DNA from: an uncultured Saprospiraceae bacterium
GTDB taxonomy: Bacteria > Bacteroidota > Bacteroidia > Chitinophagales > Saprospiraceae
NCBI GenBank assembly: GCA_937934275.1
Contig: CALHAM010000012.1
Location: 1-64,000, forward strand
Direction: 5' to 3'
Length of the DNA: 64,000 nt
In this document: positions 39,609 through 52,941 of the stretch, piece after piece
Layout: each line of letters begins with the position of its first letter
How positions within the stretch are numbered: the first letter of the stretch is position 1
Position numbers and translations under genes: made by a program
Notes under the pieces: model-generated
The model's input: the letters and a program-made list of their open reading frames with translations, nothing else
What the model was told of the DNA's origin: nothing
Databases searched by the model: none

Positions 39609-42182
39609 CTAAAACTCCGTAGATAGGCGAATGCGCACTCCCCATTTCGCCACAAAGGGGTGCTCGGTGTAGGTGAAACGCCGCAATAGGTCAATGCGAA
39701 CGATTCGGAAGATGTTGGCCACTCCCACGCTGCCTTCTACATAGGGAGGCTTGTCCAAAGCATAGGTCGCGGGAGTACCATCTTCATACGTAGGCAGATG
39801 CAGCAGCTGATTGTGTTCGTTGGGCCGATTTCGCTCGCTTAAACCTCCCCATAACGCCTTAATGGTAAACACTTCGCGCCATTTGAGCCGGCGCAAAAGT
39901 GGCACGCGCCCGAAGAACCACCCCCCGAAATTGTGGTAATAGCTAACGGCAGCATAACGGTCGCTGATAAACTCTAAAAAGTTCATGAGGTTGTACGACT
40001 CGCGCTGGTAGGTATACGTTTGGTTGGCGCGATGGATGATCAGCATCGGATAGGGCGCCTGCCCAAACACCTGCCCCGCCTCAACGATAGTATAGCCTTG
40101 TCCGAGAATAGGGTAGAAGAATACCTTGCGAACGTTGGCGCGCAGGATGTGGTAATTGTACTCACTGCCCAATACGCCGCGTATGCCGACGTCGTAGGCC
40201 AACTCCCAAACCGGGTATTTTGTCAAAATAGGTGTGCGGTAGTTCGGCCCGTCGTAAAACTTCTCATTGGGCGCGTAGCGCAGGCGAATCCCCACTTCAC
40301 TGGCCATGAGGTCCGTTTTATAGCGCGTTTCGCCCTGATCAGTGTAGTCGAAAAGCAAAACACCTGCTGGATTCTGACGCGTGTTCCGAAGCGTAAGGCG
40401 CCACGAAAAGCCGCTCAAAAACTCGCGTCGGTACTCCAAGCCATAGGTGTTTTTGTAGATCATTCGATTGTTTAAGCCGCGCTTGAGCGATAAAAAGAGA
40501 TTGTCTTCGTTGACGAATTGCAGCCCTTGCCCCGGGATCTCAATGTCGTTCTGATGCCATAGCCGAAGATGGTGAATGGGGAAGAGCCGCACTTTTTCTG
40601 GGCCAAACGAATAGGTGATGGCCTCCATGCCCTTCCAGCGCTGATCGCCCATCCCATAGGCGGCATAGCCTTCAAATGCTAAACGCGTGCTGAAGTGGTA
40701 ATTGGTACGGCCTCCAAAGCGCAAACGCAATCCCTCAATAGGGTTGAAGCTATAAAAAGCATTGGCCGGTCCCACGTCTATCCCTCCTATTGTGGTATAG
40801 CCCTCGAAAAGAAAACGCACACTCTTGACGAGGCGCTTGAACCTGCGGTCGCGGTTGAGGCTATCTATGGTTTGCTTCAGACCGATTTCGCTGCGGTTTA
40901 GCTCAATATGGCGGTTTTGGCTCCAAAATCCCTCGTCGCGCAGCAGAGCGTCTGCATCGCGCACTACCGCCTGCAGCGGCACAAATAGCGAGTCGGCTAT
41001 TGCCTCACAGAGACGGTAGGCGCGATAGCTCGTTACCTTGTTGCCCAGCAGCGACCGCGCCTTTGCGCTGTTCGAAAAGCCAAACTCAATAGATACTTCC
41101 TCGCGACTGGGCATAAGCACTCGGCTACCATCGGCCGAAGTTATCCAGGCGTACTCCTGAGTCAGCTGCATGTTATTGACCCAGTTGAGATTGATCTCGG
41201 GCGGCACACCAACTTCAATGCGGCGCAGGGCATAGGAAGAGTCAAGGGTTATCCACAAGTGCCCTGTAAAAGCTATGTCCGTTTTCACCCGCGGAGCAAA
41301 GTACACGCGCGCACAAGGTGTATCCTCCACAAGGGTAGTGTCTTGAATGTAAAAACGGTAGATCTGAGGCGAAATCGGACTGAGCGGGCCTACGAAACGC
41401 ATATTGAGCAGCTCTACAGCGCCGTCGTAAAAATCGGCCTCCGCATAAAGGGCATCGATAAAATTGGAAATACCTATCACATTGAACGCCTCTTCGAAGA
41501 CTACATGCCGCTCCGCGCGCACGTACTCGCGCCGAGTACTCGGAGTACTGCGGTAATATACGTCGGAGAGCAGCTCGCGCATGTAGAGTAAAACATTGAC
41601 TTTCTTATCGATCTGGCTCGTATCGGCATTGTCAAAAATGACTTTGAAGCGGCGTAGCAAAGGGTTGTTGCGCGTCTTTTCCGTAACATTGTTCAGCGCA
41701 AAGCCAATCTTTTCGTACTTCTCGCATTGGTAATACGAAAGCGCCTCCGGCCGGTTTTTGCTCTTATTCTCAATGGCTTTTCGGATGAGGGCTACTGCCG
41801 GGTTATCTTTGTTTCGGTAGTGCTCTACTCGAATAGTTACCTCTTGAAGCATTGAGGAGGCTTCCCGCAAGGAGATGACCAAATCGTTGTCGGCTCCAGG
41901 GCGCAGCGGGAGTTCTTGGGGCGCGTATCCAACATAAGTAACGCGCAGCGTCAGCGGGCCGGGCACTGTCGTTTGGAGGGCAAACCACCCGCTCGCATCG
42001 GCGCGAGTGACCGCATTGACCTCTACGATCCGAACGGTGGCGAAGGGAAGCGGCTCCTCCGTCAGCGCATCTAAGACGCGCCCGCGCACAGTTGTAAATT
42101 GAGACGACTGGCCAGTAGAAACAAGGGGGAGTAAAACAAGCGAGATTAACTCAAAAAAAAATAGAAATGGTTTTATTCGCAT
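39609..42182 (-). CDS. DUF5686-family outer-membrane beta-barrel with carboxypeptidase-regulatory-like domain
   Basis: 857 residues from the ATG at 42182; an ATG at 42200, six codons earlier, is possible. Signal peptide ends ~STGQ. An N-terminal CarboxypepD_reg-like domain (~27-110; VRGRVLDALTEEPLPFATV, LRVTYVGYAPQELPL) is followed by a segment with VEHYRNKDNPAVALIRKAIENKS and YYQCEKYEKIGFAL, typical of the DUF5686 family, and a long C-terminal barrel ending in an aromatic residue (LSTEF). The family is Bacteroidota-specific and uncharacterised; an outer-membrane location is likely. It ends the minus-strand operon that begins with the sphingolipid genes. Confidence 0.82.
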   Translation of the reverse strand: MRIKPFLFFFELISLVLLPLVSTGQSSQFTTVRGRVLDALTEEPLPFATVRIVEVNAVTRADASGWFALQTTVPGPLTLRVTYVGYAPQELPLRPGADNDLVISLREASSMLQEVTIRVEHYRNKDNPAVALIRKAIENKSKNRPEALSYYQCEKYEKIGFALNNVTEKTRNNPLLRRFKVIFDNADTSQIDKKVNVLLYMRELLSDVYYRSTPSTRREYVRAERHVVFEEAFNVIGISNFIDALYAEADFYDGAVELLNMRFVGPLSPISPQIYRFYIQDTTLVEDTPCARVYFAPRVKTDIAFTGHLWITLDSSYALRRIEVGVPPEINLNWVNNMQLTQEYAWITSADGSRVLMPSREEVSIEFGFSNSAKARSLLGNKVTSYRAYRLCEAIADSLFVPLQAVVRDADALLRDEGFWSQNRHIELNRSEIGLKQTIDSLNRDRRFKRLVKSVRFLFEGYTTIGGIDVGPANAFYSFNPIEGLRLRFGGRTNYHFSTRLAFEGYAAYGMGDQRWKGMEAITYSFGPEKVRLFPIHHLRLWHQNDIEIPGQGLQFVNEDNLFLSLKRGLNNRMIYKNTYGLEYRREFLSGFSWRLTLRNTRQNPAGVLLFDYTDQGETRYKTDLMASEVGIRLRYAPNEKFYDGPNYRTPILTKYPVWELAYDVGIRGVLGSEYNYHILRANVRKVFFYPILGQGYTIVEAGQVFGQAPYPMLIIHRANQTYTYQRESYNLMNFLEFISDRYAAVSYYHNFGGWFFGRVPLLRRLKWREVFTIKALWGGLSERNRPNEHNQLLHLPTYEDGTPATYALDKPPYVEGSVGVANIFRIVRIDLLRRFTYTEHPFVAKWGVRIRLSTEF

Positions 42183-42219
42183 GGCATTCTTTATCTTCAT
42201 AAGAAAGAACGGGAAAGCT

Positions 42220-42615
42220 TTAAGGTTCGTTGGGTAAAGTAAATACGAAATGGCGGTTAAACAAAAAAATGACATACCAAGCCAGGAGGGCTACACTAAT
42301 GCGCGAAAACCAAGGCGACAGGCCCAGCTCGTCGCAAAGCAGCCAAACTCCGCCAGCGTTTAGGCCCAAGCCCAACAAAACACCGGTGCCATACCGAGCA
42401 CCTAACTTCTGCCAAGGAGTGGCGTCGCCCAGGCCAAATACCCAGTGTTTTTGAAGGTAAAAAGCTACTACAGCACCTACCGACCAACCGACAAGCGTTG
42501 ACCCTCCCGCATGCGCCGTAGCGCAAAAAAGCGCGTAAAACAGCCCGAAATCTACAATCGTTGAGCCGAGTGAACTCAGCGAATACTTGAACAACAGGTA
42601 CCTATTTGGGTGCAT
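42220..42615 (-). CDS. GtrA-family membrane protein
   Basis: 131 residues with four membrane segments. Characteristic YLLFKYSLSSLGSTIVDFGLFYAL, YLQKHWVFGL, a Gly-rich third segment and FNRHFVFT. GtrA proteins are thought to flip polyprenyl-phosphate-linked sugars across the membrane or to assist in transferring them. In this operon it could serve sphingolipid or lipid A glycosylation, but that is inference. It lies 8 bp after pgpA. Confidence 0.85.
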   Translation of the reverse strand: MHPNRYLLFKYSLSSLGSTIVDFGLFYALFCATAHAGGSTLVGWSVGAVVAFYLQKHWVFGLGDATPWQKLGARYGTGVLLGLGLNAGGVWLLCDELGLSPWFSRISVALLAWYVIFLFNRHFVFTLPNEP

Positions 42616-42623
42616 GTATTATA

Positions 42624-43100
42624 TTAGCGACATATCCACCAAAAAACCTGCCACGATAAAAAGGCATAAGCCCCTGCCAAGATGTCATCTAACATTACAC
42701 CCCATCCGGCCGGCAGGTTTTCTAAAGAACGAATGCCCAATGGTTTGGTTATGTCGAACAAGCGAAACAATAAAAAGATAATCACCCAAGCCTCCCCTTC
42801 GACCGGCGCTGCCCAAAGGGCGAACCACATGCCCACCATTTCGTCTAACACCACTGGAGAAGGGTCTTTGCCCCACAGCGCCTCCGCGCGCGGCACGCCC
42901 AATATACCTACACCCATAGCAACAAAGATGACTACCCCTAACAAGATCGGGAAAAACGCAGGCGCAACCCAAGCAAGCCCTGCAGCCAGCAGCCAAGCCA
43001 GCGCAGCCCCCCAAGTACCCGGCGCTATCGGCAGCCAGCCAGCACCAAAACCACACAGCACCCACAAGAGCCAACGGTGCCTTTGTTCAGAGCCAGCCAT
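42624..43100 (-). CDS. pgpA: Phosphatidylglycerophosphatase A-like protein
   Basis: 158 residues from the ATG at 43100, 14 bp before the end of the upstream reductase gene. An alternative ATG at 43139 is less likely. The family pattern is visible: FGAGWLPIAPGTWGAALA, PSPVVLDEMVGMWFALW with the catalytic acidic pair, and FRLFDITKPLGIRSLENLPAGWGVMLDDILAGAY. PgpA removes the phosphate of phosphatidylglycerophosphate. In a sphingolipid operon it might act on a related lipid phosphate, but there is no direct evidence. Confidence 0.85.
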   Translation of the reverse strand: MAGSEQRHRWLLWVLCGFGAGWLPIAPGTWGAALAWLLAAGLAWVAPAFFPILLGVVIFVAMGVGILGVPRAEALWGKDPSPVVLDEMVGMWFALWAAPVEGEAWVIIFLLFRLFDITKPLGIRSLENLPAGWGVMLDDILAGAYAFLSWQVFWWICR

Positions 43101-44079
43101 GTTGACGATACCAAATGACGGTCTCCCTAAGCCCTCCATGTAAGTCGTACTGAGGCCTAAAGCCTAGGTCTTGAAACGTTTCTGAGGTGTCGCACCACCA
43201 ACTCACTCGCGACAACTCGCGCAACTTCTCCCGATTGAGCGCCGGCATTTTGCCATGCCACTGGCCCACCAGCTCATTTAAGGCAGCAATAGCCTTTACT
43301 CCGGACACAGGCAGGCGCAAACGCAGGACGCGCCGCCCAAGGGCCAGGCGCGCGGCTTCGCCCAAGTCTTCCGTCGTGTAGTCGCGCCCATCAGCAGCAA
43401 TATACTTCCGACCGCGCACACCGCGCTCTAAAGCAGCCAGCATCAACTCAACCAAATCGCTTACATGAATGAAGCTGGCGCGCTGAGGGCGTAGGCCAAT
43501 GTGCAACTCCAGCCCATAGTTGACCAACCGCACAAACTGGAACAAGTCGCGATCGCGCGGCCCAAAGACAGCAGTAGGTTGTACTACTACCCAAGGGAGC
43601 TGATCTGAAAGGGCTTCTAAATGCCTTTCAGCCGCCAACTTGCTAGCCCCATAAGTTGTTACTGGGGTAGGCTTTTGGTCAGGGCGCACGCGCTCTGCTG
43701 ATGTCGCTGGCCCCAAAGCAGCCAAGCTGCTTAAGAACAGAAAGCAACGCGGCCGTAAGGACTCTTCCGACAAAGCTTCGGCCAAATGACGCGTATATTC
43801 CGCATTTATTCGGAAATAATCCGCAGGCCGCAGCGCTTTTGTCGTGCCGGCAATATGCGCCACATAGTCGAAGCGCCCTTGCTGGCGCAGCACTTGGGCC
43901 AACTGCTCGGGCGATTCGTAGGGCAAATGAACAAAGCGCAGGCGCTTATCCTGCAAGTAAGAGCGGTCGCTGTTAGGGCGTATCGCTGCTGTTACCTCCC
44001 ACCCTTGTGACAGCGCTTTGTCGGTGAGGGCGCTCCCAATAAAGCCATTAGCTCCTGTAACGAGCAGACGACTCCTCAT
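43087..44079 (-). CDS. NAD-dependent epimerase/dehydratase-family reductase, candidate ceramide reductase (CerR-like)
   Basis: 330 residues with a Rossmann SDR fold: GANGFIG near the N-terminus (LLVTGANGFIGSALTDKAL), YVAHIAGTTKALRPADYFRINAEYT and the catalytic Tyr-x3-Lys in YGASKLAAERHLEAL. Its ATG overlaps the stop of the desaturase gene by 4 bp. In Caulobacter and Bacteroides, an NAD-dependent epimerase-family protein (CerR) reduces the 3-keto intermediate of ceramide synthesis. This gene fits that position within a sphingolipid operon, but specificity is not provable from the motifs. Confidence 0.65.
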   Translation of the reverse strand: MRSRLLVTGANGFIGSALTDKALSQGWEVTAAIRPNSDRSYLQDKRLRFVHLPYESPEQLAQVLRQQGRFDYVAHIAGTTKALRPADYFRINAEYTRHLAEALSEESLRPRCFLFLSSLAALGPATSAERVRPDQKPTPVTTYGASKLAAERHLEALSDQLPWVVVQPTAVFGPRDRDLFQFVRLVNYGLELHIGLRPQRASFIHVSDLVELMLAALERGVRGRKYIAADGRDYTTEDLGEAARLALGRRVLRLRLPVSGVKAIAALNELVGQWHGKMPALNREKLRELSRVSWWCDTSETFQDLGFRPQYDLHGGLRETVIWYRQHGWL

Positions 44080-45086
44080 GCGGATTTTTCGATAAGGGCT
44101 ATGTCGGGCGTAGATTCATCGCTCAAGGGCACACCACCGCGGTCTTTGCGCACGATGCGCGAAAACAAGCTGATCTCCTGACTGAACAGAAAACGCAACA
44201 GCAGCCGAGTGTACGACTTGTGGTGTTTCAGAGAGTTGTAGAACTCTGGCGCCATCGCTCGCAGCTTGGGCAGGTTGTTCCACGGCACCGACGGCATGTC
44301 GTGATGCTCGTTGTGATAGCCTACGTTCAAGTTAACTCTGTTGAGCGGACCGTAATAACTGTACGTCTCTTGGTCGGGGTCGAGCACCAAATAGTGCTCC
44401 TGTATCCAACGCGCCCCTAAGGGGTGTAGCCCTATGGAGAACATCAAGCTCAGCCCCAAATAGGCAAAAGCCTTCCAGCCTAAAAAGTAAACAACCGCTA
44501 CATCGAAGGCCAACTGCACCCCCACATTGAGCAACACCCAGCGGTCAATGAGCATCGCTTCGCGGCAGCGCAACACGCGCAACGCCTGAAAAAAGGGATA
44601 GAACAACAGCCACAAGGCCTTGCCAATGAAATAATTATTGATCAGACGGGCTTCCCAGCGCGACGGCAGGTCGGCATCTAGCTCGTGCACTCCTTGGAAA
44701 ACGTGGTGCTTGAGGTGGTAATTCTTGAACGAAATCGCCGAGGGCAAAAGGGTGGGCAGATTGGCAAAAATACCCGCGTAGATGTTCCACTCGCGTTTGC
44801 GAAAGATCAAGTGATGCGCCGCCTCATGGATGCACACAAAGAGCACGTGCGCCGGAAAAGCCCCCACAAACCACGCTACCCCTACAATCCACCACCAGCT
44901 CTGCTCGCGCAGCAAATAGGCCATAACTATTTGAAAGATAACGCACCCTAAGATAATCAGCGCTGTCCAGGGGTTCTTGCCGATCAAGTGGCGAACTTCT
45001 GGATGGCTTTCCAAAAGGGCTTTCGTGCGTTGGCGATGCGGCTCTGGGCCTGTTTTGTAGCGAAAATCCGTATACTGCAAGTCCAT
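44076..45086 (-). CDS. Sphingolipid delta-4 desaturase-like membrane desaturase (DES1-like)
   Basis: 336 residues. His boxes HEAAHH (87-92), HLKHH (124-128) and HNEHH (258-262) are those of the fatty-acid desaturase family. The segment EPHRQRTKALLESHPEVRHLIG resembles the N-terminal lipid-desaturase domain of eukaryotic DES1, and ISFKNYHLKHH, ETYSYYGPLN and NVGYHNEHHDMPSVP match DES1 motifs closely by memory. Animal DES1 puts a 4,5-trans double bond into dihydroceramide. The gene sits between a GNAT protein and a reductase in the sphingolipid operon, which supports that role. It is 8 bp after the GNAT gene. Confidence 0.78.
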   Translation of the reverse strand: MDLQYTDFRYKTGPEPHRQRTKALLESHPEVRHLIGKNPWTALIILGCVIFQIVMAYLLREQSWWWIVGVAWFVGAFPAHVLFVCIHEAAHHLIFRKREWNIYAGIFANLPTLLPSAISFKNYHLKHHVFQGVHELDADLPSRWEARLINNYFIGKALWLLFYPFFQALRVLRCREAMLIDRWVLLNVGVQLAFDVAVVYFLGWKAFAYLGLSLMFSIGLHPLGARWIQEHYLVLDPDQETYSYYGPLNRVNLNVGYHNEHHDMPSVPWNNLPKLRAMAPEFYNSLKHHKSYTRLLLRFLFSQEISLFSRIVRKDRGGVPLSDESTPDIALIEKSA

Positions 45087-45094
45087 ATTTCAAG

Positions 45095-46222
45095 TTAAAG
45101 TGTTTTTTCGTAAAGGCGATATTTCCTGTACACGCGACCGCCGATGCGCTCTAAGGCGCGATTCATCAGCGTATTGTTTTCTAAAATCCACGAGGCCTCG
45201 CCTGCGATAATCCCCCGCTGAATGCCCGCTCGTAAGGTACGAACGTAGAAACACACGTCAATGCCTAAGCGCCTATACTCTTTGAGAGTGCCTAGCGCAA
45301 CAACCCTTGCCGTGCGTATACGCCGAAGGCCTAAGAGCAAGTGGAAAATGCCCCAAGGAAAAAGGCGCCCCCGCTTTAAGCGGATGAGCACCTCGTTAAG
45401 GTTAGGTATGGTAAGCGAAACGCCGATGGTTTGCCCCTCTTTTTCGGCAAAAAAAACCAATTCTGGGTCAATAATCGGGCGCAGGTCTTTGGCAATCTGA
45501 CGGATCTCAGCCTCTGTCATCGGGACAAAACCCGTATTCTCGGCCCAGGAAGCATTGTATACCGGTAGAAACTGCTCCAATTCTTCCTTAAATCGCTTCA
45601 TGTTCATTTTCCGAATTACAATGCCTTGCTTGGCCAAGCGCTCCTCCAAGCGATGGCCCGTCTCCTGTAGAGAAGGTGGCGCATCATCGGGGGTTATCCA
45701 GTAACACAGCAAGTCAATGTGCTTAACAAACCCCTGCCTTTCTAAGAGGTCTCCATAATAGGGCGCGTTGTAGGTCATCATCACCATGGGCGGCTGGTCG
45801 AAGTTTTCCACCAACAAGCCACAGGTTTCGTTGGTCGAAAAATTGGTTGGCCCAATCATCTTTACTACCCCTTGTGGGCGCAACCACTGTTCGGCAGCCT
45901 CAAAGAGTGCAGCTGCCGCACGCGCATCGTTGACCACGTCAAAAAAGCCAAAGAAGCCCTCTTGGCGCCCTGTAAAGGCGATGTGGTTGCGGTTCAGGAT
46001 GGCAGCAATGCGCCCTAAGGGGCGGCCGTTGTCGTAAGCCATGAAATACTCCGCCGCCGAGTGCAGGAAGAAGGGCGACTTCTTCGGATTGAGTAACGCC
46101 TCTTGCTCCAGGTAGAGCATCGGGACATAGTTCGGATCGGCAGTGTATAGATCGTGTGGAAAGTCAATAAAGGCCCGTAATTTCCGGCGATTAGCCGGGT
46201 CTATCCGCTCTACCCTTATCAT
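45095..46222 (-). CDS. GNAT-family protein, candidate bacterial ceramide synthase (bCerS-like)
   Basis: 375 residues. Family pattern: FIDFPHDLYTADPNYVPMLYLEQ, NPKKSPFF, AYDNGRPLGRIAAILN (GNAT-like), GPTNFSTNETCGLLVENFDQ and YGDLLERQGFVK. Bacteroidota members of this family are usually called hypothetical; the Caulobacter bCerS that N-acylates sphingoid bases is a GNAT-type protein. It overlaps the serine palmitoyltransferase stop by 4 bp (ATGA), so the two are likely translationally coupled. A ceramide-synthase role is inferred from context and family. Several paralogues occur in some genomes, so other acyl acceptors are possible. Confidence 0.65.
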   Translation of the reverse strand: MIRVERIDPANRRKLRAFIDFPHDLYTADPNYVPMLYLEQEALLNPKKSPFFLHSAAEYFMAYDNGRPLGRIAAILNRNHIAFTGRQEGFFGFFDVVNDARAAAALFEAAEQWLRPQGVVKMIGPTNFSTNETCGLLVENFDQPPMVMMTYNAPYYGDLLERQGFVKHIDLLCYWITPDDAPPSLQETGHRLEERLAKQGIVIRKMNMKRFKEELEQFLPVYNASWAENTGFVPMTEAEIRQIAKDLRPIIDPELVFFAEKEGQTIGVSLTIPNLNEVLIRLKRGRLFPWGIFHLLLGLRRIRTARVVALGTLKEYRRLGIDVCFYVRTLRAGIQRGIIAGEASWILENNTLMNRALERIGGRVYRKYRLYEKTL

Positions 46223-47445
46223 ATCGCTGCGGCCTCTACTTCGTCCATCTGGCGGTCTAAAATACCTAAGCCCTTGGCGTGGCGATACAGAATATCAACC
46301 GCGCGCTCGATTTGCTCAAAGGTATGCGTAGCCATCAGCGAGAAGCGAATGAGCGACTCTTCGCTAGGTACTGCCGGCGACACTACAGGGTTGATGAATA
46401 CGCCATCGTCGAAGGCCATCTTCGAGAGCGCAAAGGTTTTCATGTTGTCGCGCACGTAAAGCGGTATGATGGGCGACTGCGTATGCCCAATTTCAAAACC
46501 GGCTTCGCGGAAGAGTTTCATCGAGTGACGGGTGTTTGCCCACAAGCGGTCGATGCGCTCGGGCTCTTCCTTCAAAATTTCGACAGCCGCCAATACGCTG
46601 GCAGCAGCGGCTGGCGTCATGCTGGCACTAAAGATGAGTGAGCGCGAGTGATGCTTGAGGTATTCAATCACCGAACGAGAAGCGGCAATAAAGCCACCCA
46701 ACGAGGCCAGCGATTTGCTAAAGGTGCCGATCTGGATATCTACTGCCTCGTGTAAGCCGAAATGCGAGCCGGTTCCGATGCCTAACTCGCCAATGACACC
46801 GATGGAATGCGCATCGTCGCACACCACTACGCAATTGTATTGCCGAGCAATCCGCACAATATCGGGCAGCGGGGCAATGTCTCCTTCCATGCTGAAAATG
46901 CCGTCCACCACAATGAATTTCAACACCTCTTCGGGCGCTTGAGCAACTAGGCGCTCCAAGTGCTCCATGTTGTTGTGCCGAAACTTTTGCACCCTATTGG
47001 TCAAGCACAGCCGCGTAGCGTCAATGATGGAAGCATGTACGCGTTCGTCAATGAAGATGTAGTCGTGTCGGCTAACTAAAGGTGCCAGTGCTCCGAGGTT
47101 CGCTTGGAAGCCTGTACTGTACAACAGCACGGCCTCCCGTTTCAGATAATCGGCCAGCACCTCCTCTAATTCGATGTGGATGCTGAGCGTGCCGTTAAGA
47201 AAGCGAGAGCCAGCGCATCCGCTGCCGTAACGGTCAACCGCTGCTTTAGCCGCTTCCTTAATGCGCGGGTGATTGGTTAGGCCTAAGTAGGAATTGGAGC
47301 CAAACATTAGCACAGGCTTACCGCCAATAAGCACTTCAGTATCCTGTTCTGACTCGATCACCCTGAAATACGGATATACCCCTTGCCGGCGGGTTTCTTC
47401 AGCAGCAGTGTAAGCTTCCGTGCGCGAGCGTAGCGTTTGATTCAT
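46219..47445 (-). CDS. spt: Serine palmitoyltransferase (alpha-oxoamine synthase family)
   Basis: 408 residues, a PLP enzyme of the alpha-oxoamine synthase family: MFGSNSYLGLTNHP, GSGCAGSRFLNGT, VVCDDAHSIGVIGELG (cofactor Asp and His) and the PLP Lys in GTFSKSLASLGGF (Lys ~244). Relatives include 8-amino-7-oxononanoate synthase, but the early SNSYLGLTNHP and SGCAGSRFLNG strings and the gene neighbourhood favour the sphingolipid enzyme. It condenses serine with a fatty acyl-CoA or -ACP to give 3-ketodihydrosphingosine. It is followed by the GNAT gene with a 4-bp overlap and preceded by the hydroxylase gene, 51 bp away. Confidence 0.87.
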   Translation of the reverse strand: MNQTLRSRTEAYTAAEETRRQGVYPYFRVIESEQDTEVLIGGKPVLMFGSNSYLGLTNHPRIKEAAKAAVDRYGSGCAGSRFLNGTLSIHIELEEVLADYLKREAVLLYSTGFQANLGALAPLVSRHDYIFIDERVHASIIDATRLCLTNRVQKFRHNNMEHLERLVAQAPEEVLKFIVVDGIFSMEGDIAPLPDIVRIARQYNCVVVCDDAHSIGVIGELGIGTGSHFGLHEAVDIQIGTFSKSLASLGGFIAASRSVIEYLKHHSRSLIFSASMTPAAAASVLAAVEILKEEPERIDRLWANTRHSMKLFREAGFEIGHTQSPIIPLYVRDNMKTFALSKMAFDDGVFINPVVSPAVPSEESLIRFSLMATHTFEQIERAVDILYRHAKGLGILDRQMDEVEAAAI

Positions 47446-47496
47446 GCTAAATACTTCGTTTTTAGAAAGGTGAGAAAAAGAGCGGAAAAACAGCTC

Positions 47497-48132
47497 CTAC
47501 CTAAACGGCGACCTTTTTTCCATGACAAAAGTAGTTTTAAAAACAAAATCCCATAATGGGCTACTGACTCCAAAACCTTTATCAGGCTGCTGAAAATGAT
47601 GCAACATGTGATGCTGCTTTATGCGCTGCCACAGCGGATGCCTCCAATTTAGGTGATGTATGGCGTAGTGGGTCATGTCGTAACATAGATAACCCACTAA
47701 AAAGCCGCCGAAGAAAGGATAGACGGAAGGCTCGCCCAACAGCAGCCGATATAGGCTAAAGAACAGCACAGCCAGCGGAAGGCTTACGACCGGCGGCATC
47801 ACTAAGCGCAGCCGATCGTTCGGATAAGCGTGGTGTACGCCGTGAAAAATGAAGTGGATGCGCGCCCCCCATGCCCCAGGCGGCGTCCAGTGAAAAACAA
47901 AGCGATGGAGCACGTACTCCACAAACGTCCAGCTCAGTAGGCCAGCTGCCCACCATCCTACCGACGACCAATGGGCCTCCGAACGCCATAAGCACCAGCC
48001 AACTACCGGTAAATACAACAACAGCGGCACCGTAAAATGCACCTTCGATAGAAACTCCATCCAGTCTTTTTTAAACATACGGACCGATTCTTGGCTATTC
48101 GAGATAAATAGCCGCTGATTTACCCTATTCAT
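47497..48132 (-). CDS. Fatty-acid 2-hydroxylase-like membrane enzyme
   Basis: 211 residues from the ATG at 48132. A TTG upstream and an ATG at 48078 are alternatives, but the RLFISNSQESVRM segment resembles the N-terminus of bacterial hydroxylases. Di-iron His motifs of the sterol-desaturase superfamily: HRFVFH, HFIFHGVHHAYPNDRLRLVMPP, HYAIHH and HHMLHHF, then GFGVSSPLWDFVF. This is the catalytic pattern of FA2H/Scs7, which 2-hydroxylates ceramide acyl chains, without the cytochrome b5 domain that many eukaryotic forms carry. It is the first gene of the sphingolipid operon. Confidence 0.85.
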   Translation of the reverse strand: MNRVNQRLFISNSQESVRMFKKDWMEFLSKVHFTVPLLLYLPVVGWCLWRSEAHWSSVGWWAAGLLSWTFVEYVLHRFVFHWTPPGAWGARIHFIFHGVHHAYPNDRLRLVMPPVVSLPLAVLFFSLYRLLLGEPSVYPFFGGFLVGYLCYDMTHYAIHHLNWRHPLWQRIKQHHMLHHFQQPDKGFGVSSPLWDFVFKTTFVMEKRSPFR

Positions 48133-48321
48133 ACTCTTCAAGATTTTGTCAACTACTGCCTTAAGCCAACTATGCTCCCAACCACACTAGCCAAGCGCAA
48201 GAGCACTTTCGGATTTAAATAAACGTTGGAAAGATGAAAGACACAACAGGCATCCTGTAAATGCTCGAGACTTAAATGTTTTCAGCGTTTAATGTACCAC
48301 ATTACGTACAATTCCGCTGGG

Positions 48322-48329
48322 CAAAGTTA
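48322..48329 (-). promoter_or_regulatory. Possible -7 box of the sphingolipid operon (TAACTTTG)
   Basis: Exact minus-strand TAnnTTTG match, 189 nt before the hydroxylase ATG and just beyond the recR stop. The leader would be long and no -33 element was seen, so this is a weak call. If used, it would drive hydroxylase through the lipid genes. Confidence 0.25.
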
Positions 48330-48362
48330 CAGCGAATCTCAGCATGCACTCTCCACTCCCTC

Positions 48363-48968
48363 TCATTTGGAATACGGAAGGCGCGCCAAAATCGAACGCG
48401 CCAGCGTAATCTCGTCGGCGTATTCCAGTTGTCCTCCAAACGCTACGCCTCGCGCAATGGTGCTGACGAATACGCCCAAGGGCGCTAATTGCTGCGAAAG
48501 GTAAAAAACCGTTGTTTCGCCCTCAATGGTAGGGCTGATGGCCATGATGACCTCCTTGACCTCACCCTCCGACACGCGCCGAAGCAAAGAGGCGATGTTC
48601 AGCTGGTCTGGCCCTACACCCTCCATAGGAGAGATGACACCTCCCAACACGTGGTAAAGCCCTCGGTATTGCCCAGTATCTTCGATGGCCATGAGGTCGC
48701 GGATGGTTTCTACCACACACACCAACGTGCGGTCGCGCCGCGGATCCAAACAGACGCGGCAAACCTCAGCATCCGACAAATTGTGGCAGATGCGGCACTC
48801 CCGAATGCCCGCGCGCATAGTCAGTAGGGCCTCGGCAAAACGCTCTGTAAACGCCGGCTCTTGCTTGAGCAGGTGTAAAACCAAGCGAAGCGCCGTCTTC
48901 CGCCCAATACCGGGTAGGCTAGCAAACGCCTCAACGGCTTTCTCGATCAGTCCAGAGGTGAAGTTCAT
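48363..48968 (-). CDS. recR: Recombination protein RecR
   Basis: 201 residues from the ATG at 48968. Features: helix-hairpin-helix (ASLPGIGRKTALRLVLHLL), a C4 zinc finger (ECRICHNLSDAEVCRVCLD), a Toprim domain (TLVCVVETIRDLMAIE, YHVLGGVISPMEGVGP) and a C-terminal VFVSTIARGVAFGGQLEYADEITL typical of RecR. It works with RecF/RecO in loading RecA onto gapped DNA. A TACCTTTG box lies 8 nt before the ATG. Confidence 0.96.
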   Translation of the reverse strand: MNFTSGLIEKAVEAFASLPGIGRKTALRLVLHLLKQEPAFTERFAEALLTMRAGIRECRICHNLSDAEVCRVCLDPRRDRTLVCVVETIRDLMAIEDTGQYRGLYHVLGGVISPMEGVGPDQLNIASLLRRVSEGEVKEVIMAISPTIEGETTVFYLSQQLAPLGVFVSTIARGVAFGGQLEYADEITLARSILARLPYSK

Positions 48969-48976
48969 ACGCACTG

Positions 48977-48984
48977 CAAAGGTA
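48977..48984 (-). promoter_or_regulatory. -7 box of recR (TACCTTTG)
   Basis: Exact minus-strand TAnnTTTG match with 8 nt before the recR ATG, implying a very short leader or a leaderless message. No -33 element was recognised. Confidence 0.4.
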
Positions 48985-49034
48985 CGCCAGCTGCACCCTC
49001 TCTAAGCCTGCTCCGGCAAGGGGCGATAAGAACA

Positions 49035-49060
49035 GCGGCCCGCCTATTGCAGGGGGCCGC
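49035..49060 (-). terminator. Possible terminator of the universal stress protein gene
   Basis: 7-bp perfect arms (gcggccc 49035-49041, gggccgc 49054-49060) with a 12-nt loop, 35 bp past the stop. The T-tract that follows on the minus strand is weak. Confidence 0.3.
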
Positions 49061-49094
49061 CACATGGAAAACTACCCTGTCATGTCCTGTCTAT

Positions 49095-49949
49095 CTATCT
49101 CTTGAGCTTGAGCGGAATGCTGAGCACGGGAATGTCCGAGTGATTAGCCATGTCCTCTGTTAGGCTGCCAAACAGCAAGTGCGAAAGCCCCTGCCGCTGA
49201 TGGGTCCCCATCGCAATGATGTCGGCGCTCTGCTCACGCGCCACTTCCAGAATGGCCAACTCCTCATTGAACGTATTGCCTCCAATCAGCACAGTACAAT
49301 CTCGAAGCCTCGCCTCCGCGGTCATCGCATGCGCTTTTGCCTCAATGGCGTCGCTGCTCCCTAAACCCAGCGGGTCGTTTAGGTAAAGAACAGTTACGGA
49401 GAAGGGGGAGAAGGACTGCCACTGTGCCAAATGCTCAAATACTCGCAATTGTTCGGGCCTAAGCGTAGTGGGAACCAATACTTTCTGCAGTTGAAACTCC
49501 CGCGCGCTTTCGGGTACTGCCAGCACTGCACACGGCGCCGTTCGAATAACCTTTTCAGTATTAGAACCCAAGAAAAACTCTACCGCACCCGTTGCACCTT
49601 TGGTGCCCATGACCACCAAATCTACTCCTTCTTCCTCCGCGATGCGCCGAATAGCATGGTGCAAAAAACCTTCCTCCACCCTACTTTCAAAGGGAACCTC
49701 CGAAAACTCAGGTCTTCCTGCGAGTTCATTCTTCAGCGCATGAAGCGCTTCTGCGGCGTTTTCGCGGTAAGCGTCCAAGTCGAACGCCTGCGGCACGCTG
49801 TAATCCGGCAATGGTGGGGTGTAAGCAATCGCCGTATTCACATGTAGCAACATCACCCGTCCCTTTGTCTGACAAGCAAGAAAAGCCGCCGTTTGAGCCG
49901 CATGCTTGGAATTAGCTGAAAAGTCGGTCGGAACAAGAATTTTTTTCAT
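49095..49949 (-). CDS. Tandem universal stress protein (UspA)
   Basis: 284 residues from the ATG at 49949 (a second ATG directly upstream is equally possible). Two Usp domains: N-terminal KKILVPTDFSANSKHAAQTA, VVMGTKGATGAVEFFLGSNTEKVIRTAPCAVLAVPE (ATP-binding G-x-x-G-x9-G-(S/T) pattern), and a second domain ending IIAMGTHQRQGLSHLLFGSLTEDMANHSDIPVLSIP. Such proteins bind ATP or act in stress resistance. Exact role not predictable. Confidence 0.9.
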   Translation of the reverse strand: MKKILVPTDFSANSKHAAQTAAFLACQTKGRVMLLHVNTAIAYTPPLPDYSVPQAFDLDAYRENAAEALHALKNELAGRPEFSEVPFESRVEEGFLHHAIRRIAEEEGVDLVVMGTKGATGAVEFFLGSNTEKVIRTAPCAVLAVPESAREFQLQKVLVPTTLRPEQLRVFEHLAQWQSFSPFSVTVLYLNDPLGLGSSDAIEAKAHAMTAEARLRDCTVLIGGNTFNEELAILEVAREQSADIIAMGTHQRQGLSHLLFGSLTEDMANHSDIPVLSIPLKLKR

Positions 49950-50023
49950 CATATGCAAAGCAAAAATGCCTGTTCCTTTTGCCTTGGTTCAATGATGTGG
50001 GTCAGAAACTCCCATGAGTGATA

Positions 50024-50773
50024 TCAAAAGATAGCATAAGGGTAGTGAACCTCTGTAAGGGCTAGCCCTTGAGGTGGTGCGCTGAAGGCCTTAGGGAGCG
50101 GAGTTTGCTCCTCGAGCGCCTGCTGAACGGCTTCGATCGAGAGGGTTCCATTTCCAACGGCTATGCAAGTACCAACGATGAGGCGTACCATGCCGCGCAA
50201 AAAGCGATTGGCCGCAATGTGAAACACCCACTGCGCATCGTCGGCCAGCCGTTCCCAGCGCGCTACGCGAATGGCGCACCGATAGTGGCTGTTGCCGCCC
50301 TCCGTTTTGCAAAAGGGCAAAAACGCCTCGTATTGAGGCAGCAAATCCGCCACCGCTTGCAAGGCGCCTATTTCGAAGTGCGCCGCCTGCGGATGGAGCC
50401 AGGCCGTCTGCAGAGTGAAAGGATCTTTGCGCAAGGCGATGCAATACCGGTAGTGCCGCTCAGTGGCATCGTAGCGCGCGTGAGCATCGGAAGGCATCGC
50501 TTTGATCGTGTACACGGCGATGTCGTCGGGCAGCATGCCGTTGATGTTTCTTAGAAACGTCTCCGGCAGAGCGCCCTGAGCGTCGAAGTGTGCCACGTAG
50601 AAGCGCGCGTGCACCCCCGCATCCGTCCGACCACAGCCCACCACCTCAATAGGCTGGCGCAATAAAACTGACAGCGCCTTCTCCAATACCTCCTGTACGC
50701 TTAATGCGTTGGGCTGGCGCTGCCAACCTGCGTATCGAGTGCCCCGATAGGCTAATGAAAGAAAATAACGCAT
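50024..50773 (-). CDS. truA: tRNA pseudouridine(38-40) synthase TruA
   Basis: 249 residues from the ATG at 50773, with eight additional residues possible upstream. Motifs: YFLSLAYRGTRYAGWQRQPN, the catalytic Asp in GCGRTDAGVHA, RHYRYCIALRKDPF and NRFLRGMVRLIVGT. It isomerises uridines 38-40 of the anticodon stem of tRNAs. A near-match CATCTTTG lies ~45 nt upstream. Divergent from the MORN lipoprotein gene across 424 bp. Confidence 0.95.
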   Translation of the reverse strand: MRYFLSLAYRGTRYAGWQRQPNALSVQEVLEKALSVLLRQPIEVVGCGRTDAGVHARFYVAHFDAQGALPETFLRNINGMLPDDIAVYTIKAMPSDAHARYDATERHYRYCIALRKDPFTLQTAWLHPQAAHFEIGALQAVADLLPQYEAFLPFCKTEGGNSHYRCAIRVARWERLADDAQWVFHIAANRFLRGMVRLIVGTCIAVGNGTLSIEAVQQALEEQTPLPKAFSAPPQGLALTEVHYPYAIF

Positions 50774-51197
50774 GAATCGTAAAATAAACGGCACCACAAG
50801 AATGATCTGCCCGCAAAGATGTTCGTAAAAAACTGTGCTCTGAAAGGTCTTCCACCAACCATTGAAATCGAAAACTCACCCACAGCCGTGTAACCATTCA
50901 AAATTTATCGCGATAAACCAGAGATTCGTTGCCCTAATCGGCCACTTTTTTGGCCCGAGGAACCGTAAAAATTAACTCTGCAGGAGGCGACCTCATACCG
51001 AAGGACAGTCGTCAGAAGATTTTTTAGAGAACCTTAGAAAAAGAAGGCCAAAAAGCAGTTTTATCACTTCAGTTAAGATGAAGGCGAGCTTTTACGCCCG
51101 TTGTCGGCATTTTGCCAAAATGCCGAGCGAAGCGGCGAGTAGAACCGATTTTCGGCGATTTCACGATGTTTGCAAGGCAAAAATGCTCAAATAACCT
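50774..51197. other. Divergent intergenic region
   Basis: 424 bases between truA and the MORN lipoprotein gene. The truA side has a CATCTTTG near-match to the -7 box at about 50813-50820. The middle (50880-51060) shows no gene or RNA that I recognise. A strong 10-bp inverted repeat lies at 51104-51126, and GATGTTTG at about 51165-51172 is a one-mismatch -7 box for the plus-strand gene. Confidence 0.5.
51104..51126. promoter_or_regulatory. Perfect 10-bp inverted repeat (possible operator)
   Basis: tcggcatttt (51104-51113) and aaaatgccga (51117-51126), separated by 3 nt. Because the flanking genes diverge, a terminator role is unlikely. It could be a binding site for a dimeric regulator of the plus-strand gene. 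Confidence 0.4.
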
Positions 51198-51830
51198 ATG
51201 CCTTCGACGACGTTCCACAGCATGCGTTCTTTTCACTTCTTCTTAGTCTTTCTCCTCTTGAGCACCTGTGTTGGCGATGTAGAGACTGTAGAAGTGCGCA
51301 ACGAGCACGGCGAGCTAGAGCGCTTTGCGCGCCACAAGAAAGACTACGCCCGCCATGGCCTGTATCAGCGCTTCGATGCTCAAGGACATTTGCGCGAAGA
51401 GGCTCACTACGAGCGCGATACTCTGCACGGGACGCGCACGCTCTTTTATCCGAATGGCCAGCCCGAAATGGTCGAACACTATCGCCGAGGCATACACCAC
51501 GGCCCCGTAGTGCTTTATTTCGAAAATGGACAAAAACACTTAGAGCAAACCTTCGAAAATGGCAAGTTACAAGGCCTCAGCCTTCGGTGGTATCCCAATG
51601 GCGTGTTGCGCGAACAGGTAACTCTGCGCGACAACGAGGAGAACGGCCCCTTCACCGAATGGTATGAAAACGGTCGTTTGAAAGCCCAAGGAACCTACTT
51701 GGAAGGCGACAACGAGCACGATACTTTGCGATTATACGACATCAACGGGCAACTTGAACGCCTAATGTGGTGCCAAAGAGGGCGATGCCGCACCCTATGG
51801 CGTCGCGACTCTGCAGCCACCGACGAATAA
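51198..51830 (+). CDS. MORN-repeat lipoprotein (YwqK-like)
   Basis: 210 residues. A lipoprotein signal is visible (FLLLSTC); the ATG at 51222 (MRSFHFFL) would be an equally good start. The body has several MORN-2 repeats: LFYPNGQPEMVEHYRRGIHHG, LYFENGQKHLEQTFENGKLQG, WYPNGVLREQVTLRDNEENG, WYENGRLKAQGTYLEG. Such proteins are often called antitoxin-like (YwqK), but the repeats mainly suggest a binding surface. It lies 40 bp upstream of porQ in the same direction, so may be co-transcribed. Confidence 0.8.
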   Translation: MPSTTFHSMRSFHFFLVFLLLSTCVGDVETVEVRNEHGELERFARHKKDYARHGLYQRFDAQGHLREEAHYERDTLHGTRTLFYPNGQPEMVEHYRRGIHHGPVVLYFENGQKHLEQTFENGKLQGLSLRWYPNGVLREQVTLRDNEENGPFTEWYENGRLKAQGTYLEGDNEHDTLRLYDINGQLERLMWCQRGRCRTLWRRDSAATDE

Positions 51831-51870
51831 GGCCCTACTCCCTTTTTTTCCTGTCTCTCAGAAATTGACC

Positions 51871-52941
51871 ATGCCGATGCCATCGTTGCTCTCTTTTGCC
51901 AATTGCTTTTGGGCGCTTATGTTTCTCATAGACATGTCCGCGCCCGCCGCCGCTCAAATTACGGGTGGACAACACGGCTTTAAGTTTCTGAGCCTATCGC
52001 CCTCTGCGCGCGCCACATCGCTGGGCGGCCTTGTCCTCTCTGTGCGCGACGACGACGCAACCCTGGCTGCCTTCAACCCCGGTGCCCTCAACCCAGCCAT
52101 GAACGGCCAAGTGTCGCTACAGCACAACTTCCTGTTGGCCGGCATACAACACAGCTACGCCGCTTATGCCCATCACGTCGAGGCGCTGGGGGCGACGTTT
52201 CACGCCTCCATCCAGCATGTAGGCTACGGCGAGATTCCCATGGCGGATGCCTTCGGCAACCTGCAGGGCCAAGTGCGCGCTGCTGAGACGGCTTTTACTT
52301 TAGGTGCTGCGCGTATGCTCAGTGCCAAGTGGTCGCTCGGCCTCAACGCACGCGTAGCGATGTCAGCGCTCGATAGCTACCGTGCCTCGGCCTTGAGCAC
52401 CGACGTGGGTGTGCTCTACGAAGATACGGCTAGCCTGATGTCTATGGCGGCTGTAGTGCGCAATGCTGGCACCCAACTGGCTCGCTACCAAGAGGTGCGC
52501 GAAGATCTGCCTTTTGACCTGCAAGTAGCCTTCAGTAAGCGCCTGCGCTATCTGCCTTTTCGCTTTACCGTCATCGCTCATCACCTACACCAGTGGGACA
52601 TCCGATACGATGACCCTGCCCTACGCCCTCGAAATTCGCCTCTTTTCGACGGCGGAGAGCCTACTGGAGGAAACCCTGCTGTAGACAATTTCTTTCGGCA
52701 CCTGATCTTCAACGGGGAATTCCTCCTAGGCCACGCCGAAGCCTTTCGCATCCGCTTCGGCTATAATCACTTGCGCCGAAGCGAGCTCACCGTGCGCAAC
52801 TTCCGCAGTCTGGCTGGCTTTTCTGCGGGTGTGGGCTTCCGCGTCAGCCGTCTGCGCGTAGACTTTGGCTACGCGTCTTACCACATCGCCGGTGGTGTCG
52901 TCCACTTCGGGCTAAGGGCCAATGTGCGCGAACTGTTCTGA
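51871..52941 (+). CDS. porQ: Type IX secretion system protein PorQ
   Basis: 356 residues from the ATG at 51871 (an upstream TTG is less likely). The N-terminal signal region ends near APAAAQ. The pattern GGQHGFKFLSLSPSARATSLGGL, then NPGALNPAMNG and a beta-strand barrel through to the terminal HFGLRANVRELF is that of PorQ, a member of the PorV/PorQ FadL-like outer-membrane proteins. With PorU, PorV and PorZ it belongs to the complex that attaches T9SS cargo to the surface. The cargo with T9SS domains in this window (1.6, 6.4, 7.8, 28.8 kb) would be its natural partners. Confidence 0.88.
   Translation: MPMPSLLSFANCFWALMFLIDMSAPAAAQITGGQHGFKFLSLSPSARATSLGGLVLSVRDDDATLAAFNPGALNPAMNGQVSLQHNFLLAGIQHSYAAYAHHVEALGATFHASIQHVGYGEIPMADAFGNLQGQVRAAETAFTLGAARMLSAKWSLGLNARVAMSALDSYRASALSTDVGVLYEDTASLMSMAAVVRNAGTQLARYQEVREDLPFDLQVAFSKRLRYLPFRFTVIAHHLHQWDIRYDDPALRPRNSPLFDGGEPTGGNPAVDNFFRHLIFNGEFLLGHAEAFRIRFGYNHLRRSELTVRNFRSLAGFSAGVGFRVSRLRVDFGYASYHIAGGVVHFGLRANVRELF

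Follow-up and report, generated by a model that had tools for sequence, protein, structure and literature searches.

Whether one bacterial operon can both build a ceramide and finish it is the question raised by a 64,000-nucleotide stretch of contig CALHAM010000012.1 from an uncultured Saprospiraceae bacterium (hereafter the window). For Bacteroidota, the ceramides usually described are saturated dihydroceramides; in animals, it is the 4,5-trans bond that separates ceramide from dihydroceramide. Within the phylum, 2-hydroxy ceramides are known from Sphingobacterium and a 4-ene sulfonolipid from Flectobacillus. In the window, five closely packed minus-strand open reading frames code for an FA2H/Scs7-type hydroxylase, a serine palmitoyltransferase, a tandem-GNAT acyltransferase, a Lipid_DES desaturase and an epimerase-type reductase, and three genes follow on the same strand:

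47497..48141, minus strand: FA2H/Scs7-like fatty acyl 2-hydroxylase (FA2H; 214 aa, or 211 aa from the ATG at 48132)
46219..47445, minus strand: serine palmitoyltransferase (SPT; 408 aa)
45095..46222, minus strand: tandem-GNAT acyltransferase (GNAT), predicted bacterial ceramide synthase type (375 aa)
44076..45086, minus strand: sphingolipid delta-4 desaturase-like membrane di-iron enzyme (DES; 336 aa)
43087..44079, minus strand: extended SDR (epimerase family), predicted CerR-type 3-keto reductase (330 aa)
42624..43139, minus strand: PgpA family phosphatase (PF04608, 124 bits; its first start overlaps the SDR gene by 53 bp)
42220..42615, minus strand: GtrA family membrane protein (PF04138, 56 bits)
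39609..42275, minus strand: DUF5686/CarboxypepD_reg protein (PF18939, 175 bits; its first start slightly overlaps GtrA)

Successive genes of the five-gene set are separated, in order, by a 51-bp gap, a 4-bp overlap, an 8-bp gap and a 4-bp overlap. A gene-order survey across Bacteroidota, proposed in an earlier note on this DNA, found the same packing throughout the group, in 9 of 9 distinct genomes including the window's own, as well as in locus L033, with DES-SDR or SDR-DES as the only change of order, and the wider cluster described below in two other families. Such conservation argues against chance packing. The note's description of five co-directional, tightly packed genes is therefore borne out by coordinates, families and conservation. 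Its delimitation of the unit to these five genes (43087-48132) has to be revised, since PgpA, GtrA and DUF5686 follow on the same strand and are part of the conserved cluster; the gene arrangement supports a transcription unit that would run on past SDR through all three (39609-48141). An Rfam search of positions 40000-52000 gave nothing at the gathering score, and the Bacteroidota promoter consensus TTTG-N17-23-TANNTTTG has two matches in the window, a chance level, neither of them near the operon.

The best NCBIfam model for SPT is NF047600, which it matches over its full length with 638.6 bits, 1.4 bits short of the curated cut-off of 640. Across 395 genomes, the 17 proteins above this cut-off score at least 666, and the next one below scores 526. 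Comparison with the solved SPTs 8guh and 3a2b gave an E value of 5e-148 and 497 bits, versus 215 bits for the cysteate acyltransferase 28eh. Cysteate transferases have Lys281 (SulA numbering) after Lys251; the window's enzyme has Ala274, within the motif FSAS and 30 residues past the PLP-binding Lys244, at that position. Because of this alanine, we identify the enzyme as an SPT, as the earlier note had proposed, and reject the sulfonolipid synthase identity. The alternative named beforehand, 8-amino-7-oxononanoate synthase (BioF), and more generally a BioF/Kbl identity were discarded as well, with scores of 368 bits for bioF and 312-382 bits for the glycine C-acetyltransferase models. The absence of an acyl carrier protein (ACP) gene is confirmed by the small spacing, the largest gap among the five genes being 51 bp, and this is no puzzle: for SPTs of Bacteroidota, acyl-CoA is the reported acyl donor (PMC11324152), so that a missing carrier protein is expected.

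At 0.001, neither Pfam nor NCBIfam gave a family match for the GNAT protein. A search with its predicted structure (pLDDT 74, built from 7 sequences) revealed the tandem GNAT fold expected of a ceramide synthase-like protein, with a Z score of 23.1 to 7q3a and an rmsd of 3.9 over 300 residues. A full-length homologue with 39% identity is encoded on a Klebsiella plasmid beside genes for a PLP-acyltransferase, an ACP, an epimerase and an acyl-AMP ligase, and in at least 11 of the 18 genomes with a high-scoring SPT, no more than 150 bp separate the GNAT gene from SPT. These data support its prediction as a bacterial ceramide synthase (bCerS/CerS) type enzyme. The family is broad, with some match in 378 of 395 Bacteroidota, and an Escherichia coli plasmid gene annotated YghO is also a member. 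SDR belongs to the Epimerase family (PF01370, 126 bits, cut-off 20.9) and directly follows GNAT in 7 of the 11 clusters fetched. Its identity is 38% with the G311 cluster's SDR and 29% with the epimerase of the Klebsiella cluster, a modest similarity that supports a predicted CerR type. Homology and gene order thus agree with the Spt, bCerS-like and CerR-like steps suggested earlier. The Caulobacter ceramide set is described as spt, acpR, cerR, aasR and cerS (PMC11324152). Likened by family, the operon shares with it the SPT, the SDR and the GNAT-type acyltransferase; it lacks acpR (ACP) and aasR (acyl-ACP synthetase), whereas FA2H and DES are added.

The FA2H-like assignment made from the letters alone holds for the hydroxylase, with 77.6 bits for FA_hydroxylase (PF04116, cut-off 31) and an E value of 7e-28 to Scs7 (4zr1) over residues 26-204, the His-rich motifs being aligned. 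It thus has the hydroxylase domain and motifs in common with yeast Scs7. An N-terminal cytochrome b5 domain is typical of the fungal and animal form; no such domain was detected in the operon enzyme, PF04116 being the only domain found in its 214 residues. Of the 11 SPT or GNAT clusters fetched, 6 have FA2H together with SPT on one strand and 5 have no FA2H; it occurs within the cluster in two further families. FA2H is part of the wider cluster.

DES combines Lipid_DES (PF08557, 42.3 bits, cut-off 23) and FA_desaturase (PF00487, 93.2 bits, cut-off 29.7) domains with three His boxes, HEAAHH, HLKHH and HNEHH, starting at residues 87, 124 and 258. PF08557 was found in 25 of 25 aligned relatives, and all 103 alignment rows, copies among them, match loose His-box patterns. 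Both domains and the three boxes are shared with eukaryotic DES1/DEGS1 (PF08557), from which the window's enzyme differs in being bacterial and operonic. A phmmer search against PDB sequences gave nothing at 0.001; the structure search indicated an AlkB/stearoyl-CoA desaturase-like predicted fold (Z 15.3 and 5.8, respectively). The top ranks for this model went to two chains of the chloroplast Ycf2/Orf2971-FtsHi complex, ahead of both. Of the initial reading of DES as a DES1-like delta-4 desaturase, the family assignment stands; the substrate is not given by the family, DES being found also without high-scoring SPT.

Among the 395 genomes, 40 have DES. FA2H, counted at E ≤1e-48, is present in 24 of these versus 85 overall (p 2e-8), high-scoring SPT in 9 versus 18 (p 1e-5), and any SPT-like match at 1e-140 in 34 versus 225 (p 1e-4), p values to which related genomes contribute non-independently. 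SPT, FA2H and DES are all present in the genomes G157, G319, G149 and G311. Of the 31 DES genomes devoid of a high-scoring SPT, 25 have a lower-scoring SPT-like synthase and 6 have neither; Flectobacillus and Hymenobacter likewise have DES but no high-scoring SPT. None of the 20 Cytophagales-type DES genomes tested (matches at 1e-100 or better) has a high-scoring SPT, and the desaturase alone is therefore no proof of ceramide. All 9 distinct group genomes with this type of DES, the window's own among them, have it at most 1.5 kb from GNAT, and so does L033. Outside Saprospiraceae, it is found away from SPT wherever both places are listed, as in G091 and G319, where the two genes share a contig, and in 48 Cytophagales-type loci none of the nine genes of the window that were searched for is next to it. 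The DES clade adjoins Cytophagales proteins, and the gene looks to have been inserted into the cluster later.

In larger-genome relatives and two other Bacteroidota families, the cluster also includes genes for an inositol-phosphate synthase (MIPS), a CDP-alcohol transferase and a PAP2_3 enzyme. Queries for these three had matches in 9, 8 and 9, respectively, of 15 distinct genomes searched, the relatives serving as a positive control in the MIPS search, and had none in the window's genome. We therefore rejected an inositol head group for this organism; as the genes for its synthesis and attachment are without a match here, the head group should differ or be absent. The operon retains the PgpA-GtrA pair; in relatives, the order is MIPS-PgpA-GtrA, with GtrA at the same place. 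The DUF5686 protein, whose family is present in 7 of the 11 clusters fetched, is 50% and 38% identical to its equivalents in the L167 and L157 clusters, respectively. The PgpA-GtrA pair and a CarboxypepD_reg neighbour are in common with the reported inositol lipid cluster BT_1522-1526 of Bacteroides thetaiotaomicron, and the relatives' clusters also share MIPS, the CDP-alcohol transferase and a PAP2-type enzyme with it (PMC9246714). By family and gene order, PgpA is the predicted counterpart of BT_1525, described as a phosphatidylinositol-phosphate phosphatase, and GtrA that of BT_1524 (PMC9246714). Unlike BT_1522-1526, the window's set is joined to SPT, GNAT, SDR, FA2H and DES, and its genome lacks matches to the three head-group enzymes. 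Judged by gene content, the window's operon represents a reduced version of a larger inositol-phosphoceramide cluster of the Bacteroidota. The larger version suggests that in several families of the phylum the genes for ceramide synthesis, for 2-hydroxylation and for the inositol head group move together, and that their head-group half was lost in a compact lineage.

Our main reading, to which we give a probability of about 0.72, is that this single operon, a reduced inositol-phosphoceramide cluster, would build and finish a ceramide. We infer enzyme activities, substrates and product from protein families, motifs, gene order and the presence or absence of genes. SPT would condense serine with a fatty acyl-CoA, the FA2H-like enzyme would hydroxylate C2 of the amide-linked acyl chain and the DES-like enzyme would introduce the 4,5-trans double bond, with a 2-hydroxyacyl-4-sphingenine ceramide as the likely product. 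The families agree with the 2-hydroxylated, 4,5-trans ceramide predicted in the earlier note; its label 'animal-like' is only one option, because plants and fungi have both modifications.

It is rather unlikely that the operon makes a ceramide on which the DES-like enzyme acts as a C4 hydroxylase (DES2 type, leading to phytoceramide) or a bifunctional enzyme and not as a pure delta-4 desaturase. DEGS2 gives phytoceramides (PMC11765627), the DesA-family desaturase/hydroxylase CC_0202 of Caulobacter is reported to hydroxylate an amide-linked acyl chain (PMC11324152), and the DES model is nearer to the alkane hydroxylase AlkB than to stearoyl-CoA desaturase; however, PF08557, common to all aligned relatives, is a delta-4 desaturase model, and the operon already has a separate hydroxylase, FA2H. 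Conserved packing, the presence of FA2H within the cluster in two further families and the ceramide-type family signatures make it improbable that SPT, GNAT and SDR make ceramide while FA2H and DES are accidental neighbours acting on other membrane lipids, despite the separation of DES from SPT in other families, its isolation in the Cytophagales-type loci and the clusters without FA2H. A sulfonolipid (capnine type) in place of ceramide appears most improbable: Bacteroidetes are reported to contain sulfonolipids (PMC9304779) and Cytophagales-type genomes can have a DES homologue but no high-scoring SPT; on the other hand, the SPT scores, the SPT-type alanine and the inositol-lipid genes in the relatives' clusters all speak against it.

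With ceramide as the product, this compact Saprospiraceae (Bacteroidota) cluster should equip it with two features familiar above all from eukaryotic ceramides, the hydroxyl group and the double bond, and the coupling of ceramide synthesis to a DES-type enzyme offers a directly testable bacterial route to the 4,5-trans bond. Such a route would matter for ceramide data from environmental or host samples, in which 4-sphingenine tends to count as a eukaryotic mark. Among the top-listed results of literature searches, the titles and abstract openings held no report of a bacterial delta-4/dihydroceramide desaturase or of a bacterial FA2H in sphingolipid synthesis; they stem mostly from non-subscription literature, so an earlier report may exist.

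A further proposal, of low probability, is that true 2-hydroxy-4-sphingenine ceramides are formed in some Bacteroidota by means of a desaturase acquired from a Cytophagales-type family, whose own substrate is a sphingoid-like lipid that arises without this kind of SPT. If true, delta-4 desaturation of sphingoid-type lipids would be an old, widespread bacterial chemistry from which eukaryotic DES could descend. Flectobacillus major is tabulated with sphingophospholipids in a review (PMC10626005) and included in a panel of sphingolipid producers (PMC9246714); the Cytophagales enzyme may therefore serve ordinary sphingolipids. An in-frame TGA suspected in two DES homologues (L016 and L018) turned out to be their terminal stop.

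The earlier note's putative ceramide operon is real and was mostly well read in its families and gene order. Its five genes, between which lie gaps of 51 bp and 8 bp and two overlaps of 4 bp, are as follows:

43087-48141, minus strand: all five genes
FA2H, minus strand: FA_hydroxylase
SPT, minus strand: alpha-oxoamine synthase
GNAT, minus strand: protein without a Pfam family
DES, minus strand: FA_desaturase plus Lipid_DES (PF08557)
SDR, minus strand: epimerase-type SDR

The end at 48132 that had been given corresponds to the ATG of the hydroxylase, a TTG at 48141 being the earliest start codon of that gene. Judged by DES, Saprospiraceae MAGs are the closest named relatives, with 90-91% identity in that protein. 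We regard the operon as one for bacterial ceramide synthesis into which a DES-type enzyme has been inserted.

The synthase scored 638.6 bits with the Bacteroidota SPT model (NF047600, cut-off 640), against 368 bits with the bioF model and 312-382 bits with those for glycine C-acetyltransferases, and both latter identities were rejected on these scores. It also matched the solved SPTs 8guh and 3a2b at 497 bits, against 215 bits for a cysteate acyltransferase. PMC9304779 identifies 3a2b as the S. multivorum SPT and reports a single clear active-site difference: where cysteate transferases have Lys281, their PLP lysine being residue 251, SPT has Ala. The window protein has its PLP lysine at 244 and, 30 residues further, at the Lys281 position, Ala274 within an FSAS motif also present there in 8guh, so the previous assignment as SPT holds. 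Among a sample of 395 Bacteroidota genomes, 17 score at ≥666 bits, the window's own 638 and 207 more ≤526, which by sequence places the window SPT within the high-scoring group, at its edge. The best matches in those 207 genomes are SPT-like synthases (E ≤1e-140), several of which adjoin a GNAT of the same family as the window's; all six inspected have Ala at the Lys281 position.

The GNAT was predicted as a tandem GNAT (pLDDT 74, model built from seven sequences), and its best structural matches are tandem GNATs (Z 23.1, rmsd 3.9, 300 residues), with N-myristoyltransferases lower at Z near 15. The family is broad, with some match at 1e-15 in 378 of the 395 Bacteroidota, and one member is a plasmid gene of E. 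coli that is annotated as YghO. It is gene position rather than family that sets the window GNAT apart: at least 11 of the 18 high-scoring SPT genomes, the window's own included, have their best GNAT ≤150 bp from SPT and in the same orientation. A 2024 paper repeats the finding that spt, bcerS and cerR are not neighbours in sphingolipid-producing Bacteroidota (PMC11334938); in the window they are. A 39% identical full-length homologue is found on a Klebsiella michiganensis plasmid typed as conjugative (NZ_CP106839.1, 1164-7125), next to genes encoding PLP acyltransferase, acyl carrier protein, epimerase and fatty acyl-AMP ligase; the window SPT shares 37% identity, and the SDR 29%, with the members of this set. 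By its gene content the plasmid set looks like the ceramide set of Caulobacter, which is reported to be made of such gene kinds (PMC11324152).

Residues 26-204 of FA2H can be aligned with yeast Scs7, with which they share the motifs LHRF.FH, HG.HH..P.D..RLVMPP and a final HH ahead of GFGV; a Pfam search found no cytochrome b5 domain in it. DES is above both Pfam cut-offs, and it is the only one of three PF00487 matches in its genome to carry Lipid_DES, a domain present in 25/25 aligned DES relatives. Three histidine boxes, as loose patterns, occur in 103/103 DES rows. The DES model (pLDDT 81.5) matches membrane di-iron enzymes, scoring higher with the alkane hydroxylase AlkB (Z 15.3) than with stearoyl-CoA desaturase (Z 5.8), while two chloroplast FtsHi complex chains rank above AlkB; this prediction fixes the enzyme class, not the reaction.

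In the pathway that we infer, with every enzyme activity a predicted one, SPT would condense serine with, probably, acyl-CoA. The acyl donor had been called unclear for want of a Caulobacter-type carrier; the missing carrier is expected, because Bacteroidota SPTs are reported to use acyl-CoA (PMC11324152). GNAT would then acylate and SDR reduce, steps whose order is described as disputed in Caulobacter, where the reductase is assigned to the periplasm (PMC11087976). FA2H and DES would oxidise the completed dihydroceramide. Enzymes of both types need oxygen and an electron donor.

The operon is richer than had been claimed, in its link to inositol-lipid genes and in the lack of matches to these in its own genome. 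PgpA, GtrA and DUF5686 continue it on the same strand. Two loci, L167 (genome G031) and L166 (G477, taken as identical to G008), have the order FA2H-SPT-GNAT-SDR-DES-MIPS-PgpA-(GtrA)-DUF5686-CDP-alcohol transferase-(DUF4833)-PAP2_3, with MIPS the inositol-phosphate synthase and brackets for genes called in one of the two. Two loci of another family within the same taxonomic order, L157 (G311) and L159 (G149), share the arrangement SPT-GNAT-SDR-MIPS-PgpA-GtrA-DUF5686-CDP-alcohol transferase-DUF4833-FA2H-PAP2_3, and L158 (G157) and L160 (G319), from a further family, are similar, with one to three genes missed by ORF calling. FA2H and MIPS are thus both present in six of the 11 clusters fetched, neither being found near the other five (L161-L165), and DES occurs only in L166 and L167. 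The window DUF5686 is 50% identical to the L167 protein and 38% to that of L157.

Searches for MIPS, CDP-alcohol transferase and PAP2_3 gave no match in the window's genome (99.93% complete by computed figure), in its relatives G010, G018 and G035 (3.6-3.9 Mb, DES 90-91% identical), or in G019 (5.6 Mb) and G061. The search covered 20 handles, five of which were treated as duplicates, and of the resulting 15 distinct genomes 9, 8 and 9, respectively, have the three. Because they are unmatched in its genome, the window is best taken as a reduced form of an inositol-phosphoceramide cluster, and as PgpA, GtrA and DUF5686 are kept, the inositol module was presumably lost rather than never gained.

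The two oxidative enzymes are less of an oddity than had been claimed: FA2H is part of this wider Bacteroidota cluster, and Lipid_DES occurs in 40 of the 395 genomes. With related genomes counted apart, high-scoring SPT is found in 9/40 DES genomes versus 18/395 overall (p 1e-5), any SPT-like match at 1e-140 in 34/40 versus 225/395 (p 1e-4) and FA2H at 1e-48 or better in 24/40 versus 85/395 (p 2e-8); six of the 40 have neither kind of SPT. Among 60 genomes from the search for relatives, the window's included, nine have this DES type at ≥73% identity, five a second type at 43-47% and four weak desaturase matches only. DES lies ≤1.5 kb from GNAT in all nine and in L033 (JAKLJF010000089.1, 1-11984). 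This last contig bears the label Thermoanaerobaculia (Acidobacteriota). It contains the operon of the Saprospiraceae, with the same upstream genes as the window, Usp and RecR, and its DES falls within the Saprospiraceae clade; it is most likely mis-binned.

In a midpoint-rooted tree of 99 rows, the 12 operon DES rows form one clade (support 100/99). This clade groups with 41 Cytophagales-type rows (100/96), and Hymenobacter falls outside. The eight other window genes searched had no matches in 48 Cytophagales-type DES loci (3-15 kb). Of 24 DES genomes without the operon (20 Cytophagales-type, one of these labelled Cellulophaga), all fall below 500 bits with the SPT model, at 338-354 bits in 17 and 472-481 in three, with no match at 1e-100 in four. 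On the simplest reading, DES joined the ceramide cluster a single time, within the Saprospiraceae line, and came from a family that serves in a different setting elsewhere. Cytophagales-type DES genomes may have an SPT of another kind, since Flectobacillus major is listed with sphingophospholipids (PMC10626005) and in a sphingolipid-producer panel (PMC9246714).

The Cytophagales-type loci L031-L083 have a recurring Lipid_DES neighbourhood without sphingolipid genes. Gene families C1, C2 and C4 occur there in 29, 27 and 25 of the 56 loci analysed; from their first residues, we take them to resemble glycoside phosphorylase, DnaK and HAD phosphatase. The DES of Cellulophaga sp. BC115SP (L058, NZ_JAAALB010000011.1) clusters with Flectobacillus DES, the branches between them being very short, and their neighbourhoods are alike; this genome may be misnamed.
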